Notes under the pieces: generated by a model | Database searches by the model: none | Seen by the model: only the letters and a program-made list of their open reading frames with translations | Told to the model about the DNA's origin: nothing | Assembly: GCA_003213855.1 (NCBI GenBank) | Contig: QCMJ01000003.1 | Span: 62,001-126,000 of the forward strand | Origin: Prochlorococcus sp. AG-418-O03 | GTDB lineage: Bacteria; Cyanobacteriota; Cyanobacteriia; PCC-6307; Cyanobiaceae | Direction: 5' to 3' | DNA length: 64,000 bases | Program-made: the position numbers and the translations under genes | Shown here: piece after piece, positions 128-6,852 of the stretch | Numbering within the stretch: the stretch's first letter is position 1 | Layout: the number at the start of each line of letters is the position of its first letter

Positions 128-2239
128 CTAGTTTGGAACAATTATTACTGAGCATGCTTTTAATTCCGGTTGTTTTGATATCGGGCATGACTTTTCATGC
201 ATCAAAGAGTTTACTTCACACATATTTTTTTGACTAAAACCCCAATGCATTGGTAAAAAAACTGTACCTGCTTTAATTTTGTCAGTAATCTGAACTTTTG
301 CTTGAACTTCCCCTCTTTTGGATTTAATTTTTACTATTTCATCATTTTTGATTTTTAAAGATAAAGCATCTTTAGAATTAATTTCCAATAACGGTTCTGG
401 ATTCTTTTTTGTAAGTTTTTGAACTTTAGAAGTTCTTGTCATTGTATGCCATTGACTTAGATATCTTCCAATTGTCAAAATTAGTGGGTACTCATCTGAA
501 GGGGGTTCAGCCAACCCTATAGGATCATCAATACAAAAATTTGCTTTGCCAGTCTCAGTTGGGAAATAACCATCTTCATATAATCTTTTTGAAGATGTAC
601 TAGGTACGCTGCCTTTGGGATAAGGCCATTGTTGAGGACCATGATTTTTTAATAATTGATATGATAATCCGCTCATATCGCATAATCTTTTTGTAGTCGT
701 TTTTAAAAATTCATCATAAACTTCCGATGAAGATTCATATTCAAATTGTTTGAAATAGCCTATCTTCTGTCCTACTTCAGCAAATATTTGCCAATCTGGT
801 TTTGAATTTTTATTCGATTCTCTGAAAGATGGGCAAAGGGTTACTCTTCTTTCTGAATTTGTCATAACACCATCTTTTTCGCTCCATTGAGCCGCGGGCA
901 ATACTAGATGAGCATATTTAATTGATTCACTTTGTTCATAAGATTCGTTGAGGATAATTAAAGGACATTTTGAAAGTGATTTTTTTACAAAGTTTAAATT
1001 AGGCATGCTAACCAAAGGGTTTGTAGCTGCAATCCACCAAATTTTCACAGATCCTTTTTTTATAGCTTCTATTTGTTCAAATGCAGATAGACCCTGTTTT
1101 GCAGATATCTTTCCCTCAGGGAACCCCCATATTTTTTCAATTTCATTCCTATCTATTTTATTTTTTACAAACCTATATCCTGGAAGAAGGTGCGATAGTC
1201 CACCAGCTTCTCTCCCCCCCATAGCGTTTGGTTGGCCAGTCAAAGAAAAAGGACCAGAACCTTCTTTGCCTATTTGGCCTGTCATTAGATGAAGATTTAT
1301 TAGCCCATTTACTGCTGCTGTACCCTCCTGCCTTTGATTCAAACCCATAGACCAGAGACTTAAAACATTTTTGCTTTCTCCCCATAATTTTGCAATATCA
1401 ATAATTGTTTTCTCGGATATATTGCAAATTTCACTTATTTTTATTAAATCCCATTTTTGTATATGTTTTACAAAATCAAAATAGCTTTCGGTGGACTTAT
1501 CAATGAAATTTTGATCAGTTAATTGATTCTTATAAAGATAATTCGCAATCCCAATGAATAAAAAAAGATCTGTTCCAGAAGAAATTTGTAAGTAAAAATC
1601 TGCTATGGATGAAGTTTCTGTTTCTCTTGGATCGATTACTATTACTTTTAAATTATCATTTACGTTTCTTTTACGTTTTTTAATTCGATCAAAGAGAACG
1701 GGATGACATTCTGCAGTATTTGTCCCTATTAATAAAATTAAGGAGCAATGATCAATATCTTCATAACAACAAGGAGGGCCATCAGAGCCAAAACTTCTGT
1801 TATATCCAGCTACTGCTGAGCTCATGCATAGTCTTGAATTAGCATCAAAATTATTTGTGCCTATTGCTCCCTTGAGAAGCTTTTGGGCTACATAATAATC
1901 TTCAGTATGAAATTGACCTGAGCCATACATAGCTATTGAATCAGGTCCATAATTCTTTATAGAACTCAAAATATTCTCTTTCAGAATTTCGTATGATTCG
2001 TCCCAGGAAATTTCTTTAAATTCTTCATTTAAATTTTCCCTGTAAAGTGGTACTTTTAATCTCCCATCTTTTAGGGTCTCACAAACTGTTGCTCCTTTTA
2101 CGCACAATTTACCTTGAGATGAAGGACTATCCCTATCTCCACTTACTAACCATTTATCATCAGAAACCGAACTTTTAGGCTTCATTTTTAAACCACAGCC
2201 AACACCGCAATATGGGCATTGACTTTTAGTAAAATTCAT
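128..2239 (-). CDS. narB: Assimilatory (ferredoxin-type) nitrate reductase, molybdopterin/4Fe-4S
   Basis: 703 aa; N-terminal CPYCGVGCG 4Fe-4S motif, molybdopterin oxidoreductase signatures (GSGQFHTEDYYV, TGQPNAMGGREAGGL), next to nitrate transporter and Mo-cofactor genes. Confidence 0.95.
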   Translation of the reverse strand: MNFTKSQCPYCGVGCGLKMKPKSSVSDDKWLVSGDRDSPSSQGKLCVKGATVCETLKDGRLKVPLYRENLNEEFKEISWDESYEILKENILSSIKNYGPDSIAMYGSGQFHTEDYYVAQKLLKGAIGTNNFDANSRLCMSSAVAGYNRSFGSDGPPCCYEDIDHCSLILLIGTNTAECHPVLFDRIKKRKRNVNDNLKVIVIDPRETETSSIADFYLQISSGTDLFLFIGIANYLYKNQLTDQNFIDKSTESYFDFVKHIQKWDLIKISEICNISEKTIIDIAKLWGESKNVLSLWSMGLNQRQEGTAAVNGLINLHLMTGQIGKEGSGPFSLTGQPNAMGGREAGGLSHLLPGYRFVKNKIDRNEIEKIWGFPEGKISAKQGLSAFEQIEAIKKGSVKIWWIAATNPLVSMPNLNFVKKSLSKCPLIILNESYEQSESIKYAHLVLPAAQWSEKDGVMTNSERRVTLCPSFRESNKNSKPDWQIFAEVGQKIGYFKQFEYESSSEVYDEFLKTTTKRLCDMSGLSYQLLKNHGPQQWPYPKGSVPSTSSKRLYEDGYFPTETGKANFCIDDPIGLAEPPSDEYPLILTIGRYLSQWHTMTRTSKVQKLTKKNPEPLLEINSKDALSLKIKNDEIVKIKSKRGEVQAKVQITDKIKAGTVFLPMHWGFSQKNMCEVNSLMHEKSCPISKQPELKACSVIIVPN

Positions 2240-2274: not shown

Positions 2275-3828
2275 TTAAACGTAATTTTCAGCTTTTTCGC
2301 CTTCATAAGCATCAGCGAATGATCCTTGAGGTTCCTTTAAAAAGAAATAACAGAAGAATCCAACTATTAATCCTGCTATACCTAAGACTTGGAAGAAGGC
2401 ACTATTTGAAGCAGCAATTATTTCTGGAGAAGGATCTTTACCTCCACCCATCCATAAAGGTAAAAGGCTATAAATATTTAGATAAGTTACCGCACCAACA
2501 TTTCCATAAGCTCCAACCAATCCAGCTATTTGTCCTGTAACTCTTTTTTTAACTAAGGGAACTAAAGCAAAAGTTGAACCTTCTCCTGATTGTACAAAAA
2601 ATGAACAAAGCATAGTTAAAAATACAGCCATAAGAATTCCCGCTGATCCTGTAAAAGTTCCAGGTTTTATTAAAGACATCAATAGATATCCAAACCCTAA
2701 TCCCATAGTTAGGAATCCCATTGTATTTTTTCTATTGCCTGTTCTGTCAGATATCAATCCTCCGGCAGGTCTAGCTATTAAATTCACAAATGCATAACAT
2801 GATGCAAGAATTCCGGCTACAGCTTTAGGTAAATCAAATGTAAATTCAAAGAAACTAGGAAGCATTGAAACTACTGCCAATTCTGATCCAAAATTCACAA
2901 TGTAAGTTAACTCCAAGATCGCTACTTGTTTGAATTCATATCTATCTTCTTTAGGGTAAATTTTAGTTCCATTTAATAATTCAATATTCGTTCTTATAAT
3001 TCCCCAAGTTTGGAAAATAAACCAAGCTAAAACTGCGATTAAGGCTATTGGATAAGTAGATGAAGTAAGGAAACCTACTTTTTGAAGTCTCCAACATAGG
3101 ACTGAAAGAATTGCTGCGAATGGGACATTCATTCCAATTAAACCCCAGAAATCTCTTATACTCGTTACTTCTAAACCAGCTGTTTTTGCAGGCCTTTGAT
3201 AAGGTTTTCCTGGAGGTGTATCAGTCACACTAAAGAAATAAATAATTCCATAAACGAAAGAAATAATTCCTGTAAGAGCAATAGCCCCCCTCCAATTAAG
3301 TACAGCTCCAGTAGGCAACTCAAACCCTCCTGAAAAAGACAAGAATCCAGCTACAGCAACAAGAGAAAGAGCAGAAAAAGCAGATCCAAAATTTCCCCAT
3401 CCTCCATATATTCCCTCAGCCAAACCAATTTCTTTAGGAGGGAACCACTCAGATACCATTCTTATTCCGATAACAAAACCTGCTCCTACTATTGATAAAA
3501 GCAATCTCGCAATAACGAGTTGATTGAAGTCTTGCGCACTTGCAAATAATAAACATGGCACTACAGAAAATATCAAAATTGATGAGTAAGTTTTTCTTGG
3601 GCCAAATTTATCCAATAACATTCCAATCAAAACTCTTGCAGGAATAGTCAAAGCAACATTACATATTGCTACTGTTCTAATTTGAGCAACAGATAAACCT
3701 AAATCGGCTTTAACAGTAGTTGCAAGAGGTGCGAGGTTAAACCAAACAACAAAAGTAAGGAAAAAGGCAAACCAGGTGAGGTGAAGAGTTCTATATCTGC
3801 CATTTAAAGACCAAACGTCACTTAACAT
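2275..3828 (-). CDS. nrtP: MFS nitrate/nitrite permease (NrtP/NapA type)
   Basis: 517 aa, multi-TM MFS protein with NNP-family features (TWFAFFLTFVVWFNLAPL, AGFGN-like GGWGNFGSAFS); co-directional with narB. Confidence 0.92.
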   Translation of the reverse strand: MLSDVWSLNGRYRTLHLTWFAFFLTFVVWFNLAPLATTVKADLGLSVAQIRTVAICNVALTIPARVLIGMLLDKFGPRKTYSSILIFSVVPCLLFASAQDFNQLVIARLLLSIVGAGFVIGIRMVSEWFPPKEIGLAEGIYGGWGNFGSAFSALSLVAVAGFLSFSGGFELPTGAVLNWRGAIALTGIISFVYGIIYFFSVTDTPPGKPYQRPAKTAGLEVTSIRDFWGLIGMNVPFAAILSVLCWRLQKVGFLTSSTYPIALIAVLAWFIFQTWGIIRTNIELLNGTKIYPKEDRYEFKQVAILELTYIVNFGSELAVVSMLPSFFEFTFDLPKAVAGILASCYAFVNLIARPAGGLISDRTGNRKNTMGFLTMGLGFGYLLMSLIKPGTFTGSAGILMAVFLTMLCSFFVQSGEGSTFALVPLVKKRVTGQIAGLVGAYGNVGAVTYLNIYSLLPLWMGGGKDPSPEIIAASNSAFFQVLGIAGLIVGFFCYFFLKEPQGSFADAYEGEKAENYV

Positions 3829-4048: not shown

Positions 4049-4654
4049 ATGGAAATAAAACTTAAAAAATTTAAAGCATTCATTTTGGCTGGTGGCAAGA
4101 GTTCAAGGATGGGATCTGATAAAGCACTCATTAAACATCATGAAGGAGGGAATTGGCTGACTCACAAAATAAAAATATTAAATAACCTTCATTTAGAGAC
4201 TTTTGTAATAACAAATTATACTTCTCATTTAAAGGAAGTTGATAAAAGTAATAATGTTGAGTTTATTTCAGATGCCCAACCCTTTGATGGACCCTTAACT
4301 TGTATAGAACAAATTTTTTCATCTTTTAAAAAAACCACTAAAAATATACTAATCATCCCAGTCGATATGCCTAATTTGAATACGAAATTAATTTATTCAC
4401 TTTTTAAATCATGGGAAGAAAATCAAAATTTTGCGGTAATATCCCATGATGGAATTTTTGCACAACCATTATTCGGAATTTATCCCATCAATGAAGAAAA
4501 TCATTTTAAATTAAAAAAAAAGTTATCCTCTGAGAAGAAAAATTTTCTCGGCTGGGTTGATCAAATTCCCCATAAATATTTCTATGCAAACAATGGAGAT
4601 TTAATTAATATAAATTCCAAGAGAGAATTTTTAAATATGAATAATGGAATTTAA
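4049..4654 (+). CDS. mobA: Molybdenum cofactor guanylyltransferase
   Basis: 201 aa; N-terminal FILAGGKSSRMGSDKALI nucleotidyltransferase signature. Confidence 0.93.
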   Translation: MEIKLKKFKAFILAGGKSSRMGSDKALIKHHEGGNWLTHKIKILNNLHLETFVITNYTSHLKEVDKSNNVEFISDAQPFDGPLTCIEQIFSSFKKTTKNILIIPVDMPNLNTKLIYSLFKSWEENQNFAVISHDGIFAQPLFGIYPINEENHFKLKKKLSSEKKNFLGWVDQIPHKYFYANNGDLININSKREFLNMNNGI

Positions 4655-5705
4655 GCAATTGGAGGATAATAGAAAAAGAAAGTTAAAAGTTTTAAGGTTA
4701 TCTCTTAAACAAAATTGCAATTTTTCATGTATTTACTGTAAGCCTGAGAACTCTAGTTTGGATGTTTTAAATATTGAACAATTTAAAAAGTTAATTTTAG
4801 TCAGTTGTCGATTAGGGGTAAATTCTTTAAGAATCACTGGAGGAGAACCTTTATTGAGTTCTCAATTAGATGAACTTCTTTATGAAATTAAATCGCGAAG
4901 ATTAGAAGAATCAAATCCAGTAGCTAATTTACAGGATATTTCTCTAACCACAAATGGATATTTGCTCTCTAAGAAAAAAGCTAATGAGCTTTTTAAAAAT
5001 GGTTTAGACCGCATAACAGTAAGTTTAGATGCGATTGATCCTGATATTTTTTCAAACATGATTGGAGAGGAAAATAAAATTATTGGCAAAGAAAAATTAT
5101 TTACTGTCCTTGAAGGAATAGATCATGCAATTAATGCTGGATTTAATCCAAAGGCGGGGAAATTAAAAATAAATGCAGTTATAAAAAAAGAGATTAATGA
5201 CAATCAAATTTTTGAATTAGTTGATTTTGCAAAAAAAAGGTCTATAGAAATTCGTTTCATTGAGTATATGGACGTAGGGATATCTAATAATTGGCAGCCA
5301 TCAGATGTTTTTTTCTCTGAAAGAATTATTAGGCTATTAAAGAAGAAACATCGATTAAAAGACTACGGAAGAAAGGAGGGACAAACTGCTAATAGATGGT
5401 ACATGAGTGATTCAAATAGTTTTGTAAGTACAATCTCTTCAATAAGTAATCCTTTTTGTTCAGACTGTAATAGATTGAGGATAACTAGCGATGGTTATGC
5501 TTATACATGTCTTTTTTCTAATGAAGGTATAAATCTAAACCCATGGTTGTCTCTACCAATTAATCTCCATGAATTGGAAAATAAAATCAAGAGCATTTGG
5601 GAAGCTAGAGAAGATAACTATAGTGAAGATCGATTTAAAGTAATAGAGAAAACAACTGACAAAAATCAAAAAATTCATCCATCAATGTCATATCTTGGGG
5701 GATAA
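4644..5705 (+). CDS. moaA: GTP 3',8-cyclase (molybdenum cofactor biosynthesis radical SAM protein)
   Basis: 353 aa; CNFSCIYC radical SAM motif, TGGEPLL, C-terminal CSDCNRLRITSDG and terminal GG; overlaps mobA by 11 nt. Confidence 0.95.
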   Translation: MEFKQLEDNRKRKLKVLRLSLKQNCNFSCIYCKPENSSLDVLNIEQFKKLILVSCRLGVNSLRITGGEPLLSSQLDELLYEIKSRRLEESNPVANLQDISLTTNGYLLSKKKANELFKNGLDRITVSLDAIDPDIFSNMIGEENKIIGKEKLFTVLEGIDHAINAGFNPKAGKLKINAVIKKEINDNQIFELVDFAKKRSIEIRFIEYMDVGISNNWQPSDVFFSERIIRLLKKKHRLKDYGRKEGQTANRWYMSDSNSFVSTISSISNPFCSDCNRLRITSDGYAYTCLFSNEGINLNPWLSLPINLHELENKIKSIWEAREDNYSEDRFKVIEKTTDKNQKIHPSMSYLGG

Positions 5706-5780: not shown

Positions 5781-5921
5781 ATGCGTTTAGCAATCTTACT
5801 TGGTTTTATTTTGGGGGTAACTCACGGAACTGTTGTTTCCGAAAGTTATTCTGCAAACAATTATGAAAATAATCAATTATTTTTTACTCAAAAAAATTCA
5901 AATATATTTTCTTCACTTTAA
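5781..5921 (+). CDS. Hypothetical small protein with N-terminal hydrophobic segment (46 aa)
   Basis: ATG..TAA ORF MRLAILLGFILGVTHGTVVSESYSANNYENNQLFFTQKNSNIFSSL; below the length of the supplied ORF track, read by eye. Confidence 0.35.
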   Translation: MRLAILLGFILGVTHGTVVSESYSANNYENNQLFFTQKNSNIFSSL

Positions 5922-5952: not shown

Positions 5953-5994
5953 GTATTGCCATTAACATCTTGTAAATTAAATTATACTTATAGT
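5953..5994 (+). promoter_or_regulatory. Candidate NtcA promoter: GTATTGCCATTAAC (5953-5966), 22 nt spacer, TATAGT -10 (5989-5994)
   Basis: GTA-N8-AAC (GTN10AC) box exactly 22 nt upstream of a TAN3T -10; predicted TSS ~6001, just ahead of the riboswitch candidate. Confidence 0.6.
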
Positions 5995-6000
5995 AAGAAT

Positions 6001-6080
6001 GTAGCGTAGACTACATAAACGTTCATCTCGTTTTTCGAGCCGCATTAAGATTGAAGCCAAGGAACGGGGACTTCAGTCAA
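6001..6080 (+). promoter_or_regulatory. Candidate glutamine-II riboswitch (downstream-peptide RNA motif)
   Basis: ACGTTCATCTCGTTTTTCGAGCCGCATTAAGATTGAAGCCAAGGAACGGGGACTTCAGTC. P1 CGTTC(6020-6024)/GAACG(6062-6066), hairpin CTCG/CGAG (6027-6030/6036-6039), pseudoknot TGAAG(6052-6056)/CTTCA(6071-6075) directly before the ORF start. Confidence 0.75.
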
Positions 6081-6082
6081 AA

Positions 6083-6412
6083 ATGAAATTTAGTCACATA
6101 ACTATTATGTCTAATAACGTATCTACCACAGTAAGTAGTAACAATATTACTGCTGTATTTGCAGGTTTTCTTGGAGCATTTATTGTTGGTTCTCTTGGTG
6201 TCCAACTTGTAAGAACCCAAAAGCCTTCTTTTCAATCTCAACCATTAAAAGTTCAACCAGTTATCGCTCATCAATCAACTTTATGGGCAGCTTTAGGAGA
6301 ACAAGATACTCCTATTGTTAAAAATAAAGTTTCTAATGCAAAAACTACAGGAGTTGTACCTGTTATAGGTTCTGAAGCAACTCTTTGGGCTCCTCTAGGT
6401 TTAGGTAATTAG
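6083..6412 (+). CDS. Hypothetical small protein with one TM segment and duplicated TLWAxLG motif; riboswitch target (start could be 6107)
   Basis: 109 aa ORF; alternative ATG at 6107 (MSNNVSTT...). Contains STLWAALGEQ and ATLWAPLGLG repeats. Confidence 0.75.
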   Translation: MKFSHITIMSNNVSTTVSSNNITAVFAGFLGAFIVGSLGVQLVRTQKPSFQSQPLKVQPVIAHQSTLWAALGEQDTPIVKNKVSNAKTTGVVPVIGSEATLWAPLGLGN

Positions 6413-6437
6413 TAAATTAGGTCTTTTAATAAACCGA

Positions 6438-6463
6438 AGGGGGTTTTTAACCCCCTTTTTTTT
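6438..6463 (+). terminator. Rho-independent terminator
   Basis: AGGGGGTTTTTAACCCCCTTTTTTTT stem-loop plus T-tract after the 6083..6412 ORF. Confidence 0.85.
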
Positions 6464-6714: not shown

Positions 6715-6852
6715 ATGGAAAAAAAAATCGCAAAGAAATACGCCGCTCTTATAGTCCAGGCTAATAATTCAACTGGCAGAAAAGAAGCTTTGTCATTGAT
6801 TAAGCAAGCAACAAAATTAAAAACCAAACTTGATCAATACGAAATGATGTAG
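6715..6852 (+). CDS. Hypothetical small basic protein (45 aa)
   Basis: ATG..TAG: MEKKIAKKYAALIVQANNSTGRKEALSLIKQATKLKTKLDQYEMM. Confidence 0.55.
   Translation: MEKKIAKKYAALIVQANNSTGRKEALSLIKQATKLKTKLDQYEMM

Follow-up and report, generated by a model that had tools for sequence, protein, structure and literature searches.

The RNA element considered here belongs to the Glutamine-II riboswitches (RF01704, also referred to as type 2 or Downstream-peptide), with which it shares its sequence, its pseudoknot architecture and its location just before a small ORF. Type-2 switches have been linked to DUF4278 proteins (PMC6316151), whereas the target here is a membrane protein encoded in a nitrate-assimilation cluster and not a DUF4278 protein. 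The papers on type-2 switches found in an open-literature search draw this link to DUF4278 proteins and do not mention the present target; the riboswitch adds one more member to a class already known, and the new part is its target. A second parallel is the gifB/IF17 system, in which an NtcA-type site near the start and a glutamine-ON riboswitch likewise precede a small regulatory protein that is expected when nitrogen is replete. The gifB/IF17 switch is of the glutamine-I class, combined with NtcA repression, and the partner of its product is glutamine synthetase, whereas the protein described here is unrelated, is predicted to be membrane-bound and has a nitrate permease as its genomic partner.

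Control of nitrate uptake and reduction has been described for several other systems. The ABC nitrate transporter NrtABCD is controlled by PII through NrtC/NrtD (PMC6603209). If the protein described here is a brake, as discussed below, the likeness would be that nitrate import is stopped when nitrogen suffices (PMC6603209), yet the transporter and the regulator are different ones, and the small protein is absent from all 81 sampled narB-containing genomes that lack NrtP. NirP1, an 81-aa protein that binds nitrite reductase, is comparable as a small nitrogen-regulated protein acting on nitrate assimilation, and has been reported to be absent from Prochlorococcus (PMC10907346). It is by this published distribution that NirP1 differs from the protein described here. 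Plant NRT2 transporters need a single-helix partner, NAR2. The comparison with NAR2/NRT3 lies in the single-helix partner of a related MFS nitrate transporter; no family match was found for the protein described here, and size and regulation differ. NrtS is a small-protein nitrate transporter, for which an open-literature search found no paper.

The Glutamine-II aptamer

The window (the whole stretch of 64,000 nucleotides that was analysed) contains a Glutamine-II aptamer at positions 6017-6076 of the forward strand. The original prediction had proposed such a riboswitch and suggested an Rfam covariance-model search as a check. The proposal is borne out, as cmscan of the window assigns the element to RF01704 with 64.4 bits (gathering score 33; E 2.8e-13). 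The aptamer consists of a pseudoknot helix, CGTTC (6020-6024) with GAACG, a CTCG/CGAG hairpin and a 3′ helix formed by TTGAAG and CTTCAG. The CGTTC/GAACG pairing had been recognized previously under the name P1; the pairing is present, but its place in the fold is that of the pseudoknot helix, the hairpin being CTCG/CGAG. Among 25 distinct aptamers from the window's genome and other picocyanobacterial genomes these three helices are paired in 96.3% of cells, and two-sided changes occur at 10 of the 15 pairs. None of 500 shuffles reached either the observed pairing or the observed covariation value; the shuffles, as well as slid controls, remained far below both. Six nucleotides separate the end of the aptamer from an ATG at 6083, so that a small ORF has the aptamer in its 5′ leader. 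It is well supported that the gene of a small single-helix membrane protein is directly preceded by a genuine Glutamine-II riboswitch. A pairing between CATT (6043-6046) and the start codon, obtained from single-strand folding, was dropped as a mechanism; its letters are invariant in close orthologues.

The window's genome contains four Glutamine-II riboswitches. Two of the other three precede DUF4278-like small ORFs (assigned by eye) and one precedes a 53-aa ORF that is unlike DUF4278. This last copy (L004; G000:C3:48057-48119, reverse strand), the fourth of the genome, is located about 8 kb from nirA, and its aptamer is nearly identical to the crystallised aptamer of Prochlorococcus sp. RS01. 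It is not accompanied by the GTAN8TAC palindrome described in the next section and has a direct repeat, TTAACGTTCA.

Predicted promoter elements and the sign of the switch

Upstream of the aptamer there is an NtcA-like box, GTATTGCCATTAAC (GTA-N8-AAC; 5953-5966, forward strand), which is followed after exactly 22 nt by the -10-like element TATAGT (5989-5994, forward strand). Box, spacing and TATAGT are retained together in 40 of 41 orthologous loci, and the one exception, L071, is also without the riboswitch. These elements had already been part of the original prediction, and all are found where it placed them, the box at activator distance. A further element that had been overlooked is the palindrome GTAGCGTAGACTAC at 6001-6014 (forward strand), a perfect GTAN8TAC that overlaps the predicted transcription start. 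Transcription of yfr6 starts about 20 nt before the aptamer (PMC2864571), and a start at the same distance here would centre the two predicted sites near -41.5 and +7.5. A position of about -41 is one from which NtcA activates; the sites for repression of gifA and gifB are at -30.5 and -7.5, near the place taken here by the palindrome (PMC6316151). By the sequence of its sites the gene would be a candidate member of the NtcA regulon, with GTAN8TAC exact at 6001-6014 and with one mismatch (AAC for TAC) in the -42 box.

The arrangement is shared by other loci of this riboswitch class. A GTAN8TAC palindrome is present within 45 nt before the aptamer in 42 of the 43 Glutamine-II loci scanned (0.4 expected from Markov-simulated sequence), and in most of these loci a GTAT-N6-(G)AAC box precedes the palindrome by 48-49 bp, measured centre to centre; the loci are paralogous or orthologous, so that the counts are of non-independent events. 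The more specific form GTAG-N6-CTAC is found at only 16 sites in the window's genome, three of which are at its riboswitches.

The palindrome at 6001-6014 may be an NtcA operator or a 5′ RNA hairpin. If it were a stem-loop of the RNA, NtcA would act only at -42 and the leader would operate as an AND gate, with transcription responding to 2-oxoglutarate and translation to glutamine, so that starved cells would make a pulse of the protein on encountering new nitrogen. Conservation of the letters GTAG/CTAC goes beyond the NtcA consensus and would allow them to pair, which fits a stem-loop; they show no covariation, however, the fifth pair is a C-A mismatch in some variants, and GTA and TAC are exactly the NtcA half-sites. 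We regard the RNA hairpin, with the AND gate that goes with it, as the less likely identity of the palindrome, though one to be taken seriously.

In this riboswitch class, the pseudoknot is known to be stabilised when glutamine binds. For a type-2 riboswitch of Prochlorococcus, a passage in the review PMC6316151 states that glutamine binding activates expression, and the glutamine-bound state has been proposed to free the ribosome-binding site (structure paper PMC6698751). For one gene behind a Downstream-peptide RNA, apparent down-regulation on nitrogen starvation has been reported (PMC2864571). From the reported glutamine-ON behaviour and the NtcA-type palindrome over the predicted start, the protein is expected when nitrogen is replete. 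The original prediction, in which the protein was made when glutamine is low, is probably inverted, and expression at high glutamine is expected instead; the gifB-like wiring that it proposed holds as far as the combination of NtcA with a glutamine ON switch is concerned, but with the opposite sign.

The small membrane protein and its nitrate cluster

The gene behind the aptamer (6083-6412, forward strand) encodes 109 aa, or 101 aa from an alternative start at 6107; the second ATG is the only start common to other genera, and the 101-aa form is therefore the likelier product. The ORF is under purifying selection (median pairwise dN/dS 0.36) and is followed directly by an intrinsic terminator-like GC stem and T run (6437-6463, forward strand). 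AlphaFold2 predicts a transmembrane helix at residues 14-36 of the 101-aa form (6146-6214), which is the only confident element of the model (block pLDDT up to 91), the rest being disordered with a mean pLDDT of 59. Arginine and lysine residues after the predicted helix suggest that the tail is cytoplasmic. Alignment shows a PVI...TLW..LG motif twice in the tail, the first copy being VQPVIAHQSTLWAALGEQD (6251-6307) and the second VVPVIGSEATLWAPLGLGN (6353-6409). In several other genera the homologues have a length of about 60-75 aa and a single copy, a form that looks ancestral. The alignments and the model agree with a proposed family pattern in which one predicted helix precedes one or two PV-x-x-x-x-[SA]TLW-like motifs.

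Comparisons of the protein with Pfam, NCBIfam, PHROGs and PDB sequences returned nothing above threshold, and no Pfam or NCBIfam family, DUF4278 and IF17-like families included, was matched at its cut-off. A weak resemblance to the cobalt transporter subunit CbtB (TIGR02459, 14.7 vs 64.4 bits, E 0.033) was dropped. Searches of viral contigs for relatives of the protein, and of phages for similar DNA, found none. Two genomes (G009 and G092) have a second, weaker match to the small-protein profile, a 92-aa frame located away from the nitrate cluster (E 2e-5 to 4e-5). The frame of the gene is also open across 6005-6082 (forward strand), through the aptamer, in nearly all close orthologues, L047 being an exception. 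A start inside the aptamer was rejected, the frame relative to the aptamer being different in another genus, and the open frame is probably due to chance.

The gene forms the closing end of a nitrate-assimilation cluster (nirA...narB, nrtP, mobA, moaA). Upstream are a moaA gene for a GTP 3′,8-cyclase-like protein (4644-5705, forward strand; Pfam Radical_SAM and Mob_synth_C, TIGR02666 at 278.8 against a cut-off of 284 bits) and a mobA gene for a molybdenum cofactor guanylyltransferase-like protein (4049-4654, forward strand; Pfam NTP_transf_3, the best NCBIfam models being MobA, below their cut-offs). Beyond these are the gene of an NrtP/NapA-like MFS nitrate permease (2275-3828, reverse strand) and a narB-like nitrate reductase gene (128-2239, reverse strand), both identified by sequence and position, and a narM-like gene, moa/moe genes and nirA, several of them recognized by eye. 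moaA adjoins the gene in 40 of 41 intact named orthologues, and mobA and nrtP are present too wherever the contig reaches that far. This neighbourhood is the strongest clue to function and had no place in the original prediction, whose claim of an uncharacterised, nitrogen-linked small membrane protein agrees with the location and with the lack of a family match.

Between moaA and the promoter elements there is a 46-aa ORF (RLAILLGFILGVTHG..., 5781-5921, forward strand), the first half of a conserved small-protein pair. In a search at E up to 0.05, homologues with the pattern R-x-A-x-x-LG-x-x-x-G-x-x-HG were found at 40 of the 43 family loci that carry the gene. Similar short ORFs precede the gene in distant genomes in which the pair is located away from nitrate genes (L142, L144, L149, L150 and L151), and the 46-aa ORF and the small membrane protein appear to form a conserved module. 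Among the loci scanned, the riboswitch precedes the gene only in the window's genus and in g56, which resembles low-light Prochlorococcus. The pair is positioned directly after narB, without a riboswitch, in the marine Synechococcus-like genera g5 and g34. On this distribution the riboswitch seems to have come in between the two members of the pair in the Prochlorococcus lineage.

Eight loci retain only a 3′ remnant of the gene. Here DNA from the nirA-region start of the cluster is fused, with short overlaps, to the equivalent of window position 6195, 6219, 6239, 6242 or 6316; the five distinct junctions indicate at least five independent deletions that took the cluster, the riboswitch and the 5′ part of the gene together. 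nrtP was not found in any of the genomes with such remnant loci. At L071 an intact gene is located elsewhere, without riboswitch or nitrate neighbours and near a DUF4278-like gene; nrtP was not found in this single-cell genome, which may be incomplete. A 45-aa ORF (MEKKIAKKYAALIVQ..., window 6715-6852, forward strand) is conserved and retained in the deletion strains, and has a paralogue near L004 (2292-2426, reverse strand).

Association with NrtP and candidate function

The distribution of the protein was followed in a family sample of 300 genomes, with the window's own narB and nrtP products as queries for these two genes. Matches to narB were obtained in 177 genomes, to nrtP in 96 and to the protein in 87; one further match (E 0.009, with an internal stop) was left out of the 87. 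All 87 protein-carrying genomes also have nrtP. The protein is present in 87 of 96 family genomes with both narB and nrtP and in 0 of 81 with narB but without nrtP (Fisher p 2e-40 for the association, a statistic that ignores shared ancestry); the remaining nine nrtP-containing genomes gave no match. Protein and nrtP genes are on one contig, at most 6 kb apart, in 80 of the 87, and on different contigs in the other seven. Within the window's genus the protein occurs in 7 of 7 nitrate genomes and in 0 of 17 genomes without narB. No flexible genes beyond the nitrate genes, a set that may include this gene, have been reported to covary with narB (eLife 2019, PMC6370341). Outside the family, in a class-wide sample that includes 40 nrtP-containing genomes, seven genomes match at E<0.01 and all seven have nrtP. 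Weaker candidates are found adjoining nrtP in G421 (E 0.001) and adjoining narB in G320 (E 0.024). Gene order varies between genera and the association holds; the genomic tie between the protein and the MFS permease NrtP is well supported.

In the mechanism that we favour, NtcA would occupy the palindrome (about +7.5) and limit transcription when 2-oxoglutarate is high, and the weaker -42 site may prime transcription. When nitrogen is sufficient, NtcA would be released and glutamine would open translation, and the protein would be made. It would reside in the membrane, the ATLW-motif tail probably facing the cytoplasm, and would exert feedback on NrtP, or on the nitrate reduction coupled to NrtP, as a modulator and most likely as a brake, so that glutamine-sufficient cells would stop nitrate import and reduction. 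That the protein is gated by glutamine and modulates, probably brakes, NrtP-type nitrate uptake, with a presumed NtcA role, topology, target and sign, is in our estimate evenly poised between right and wrong. Such a brake would give the Glutamine-II riboswitch a physiologically sensible target. Where the ABC-type nitrate transporter has its control via PII and NrtC/NrtD, the NrtP type would gain a specific candidate for matching uptake to nitrogen status, one that tracks NrtP across the cyanobacteria sampled. In Prochlorococcus the ability to use nitrate is patchy and ecologically important, and cells grown on nitrate have been reported to release nitrite, without a known regulator; the locus suggests a way in which nitrate-using Prochlorococcus could tune nitrate use to the internal glutamine level.

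Several observations speak against this mechanism. The -42 box predicts activation by NtcA, opposite to the palindrome. The marine Synechococcus-like homologues have no riboswitch and are perhaps co-expressed with narB, an arrangement compatible with a positive role too, and both the L071 genome (gene without detected nrtP) and the nine nrtP-containing genomes without a match depart from strict pairing. A review also holds that NrtP is not regulated post-translationally (PMC4390861), an argument against a direct effect on the permease that leaves NarB in play as a rival target. A broader proposal is that in cyanobacteria with NrtP this permease is controlled or completed by two tiny membrane proteins, a pair not described before, and that Prochlorococcus put one of the two under a glutamine riboswitch. 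If so, nitrate import would answer directly to glutamine, in a PII-independent feedback loop for the nitrate trait of an abundant marine phototroph. This proposal is held tentatively and falls somewhat short of an even chance.

A further main rival is that the protein and its 46-aa partner are a positive accessory subunit of NrtP in the manner of NAR2, contributing to stability, assembly or high-affinity function. Such a role would account for the strict co-occurrence with NrtP, for single-helix partner proteins and for the pair directly after narB in marine Synechococcus-like nitrate clusters. A subunit for import should be made when nitrogen is short, however, whereas in Prochlorococcus a glutamine-ON switch precedes the gene; no sequence relation to NAR2 was found. 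We consider this role improbable. Similar doubt attaches to a target other than the permease, with the cytoplasmic tail acting on NarB or PII in strains whose NrtP is not itself ammonium-controlled. The gene adjoins narB in marine Synechococcus-like loci and at the weak match of distant G320, and in some species it is nitrate reductase, not NrtP, that is ammonium-controlled (PMC4390861). Against this, the absence of the protein from all narB-containing genomes without nrtP ties it to NrtP-type strains, and if the target were soluble, the conservation of a membrane helix would be difficult to account for.

An NtcA-activated, glutamine-OFF effector made under nitrogen shortage, as first proposed, would suit the conserved -42 box and -10 spacing but is very improbable given the reported ON switch (PMC6316151), the palindrome over the predicted start and the reported down-regulation on nitrogen starvation (PMC2864571). 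It is hardly credible that the gene merely marks the cluster edge, its position in the window's genus, and is lost with the cluster through position only, when the association persists across differing gene orders, when pairs outside the family can be located away from nitrate genes while confident matches occur only in nrtP-containing genomes, and when no copy was detected in any of the 17 narB-lacking genomes of the genus.

The window also contains two further RNAs on its reverse strand, the IsrR antisense RNA (RF01419; 38331-38514, 155 bits) and the Yfr19 small RNA (RF02366; 15819-15900, 102 bits).
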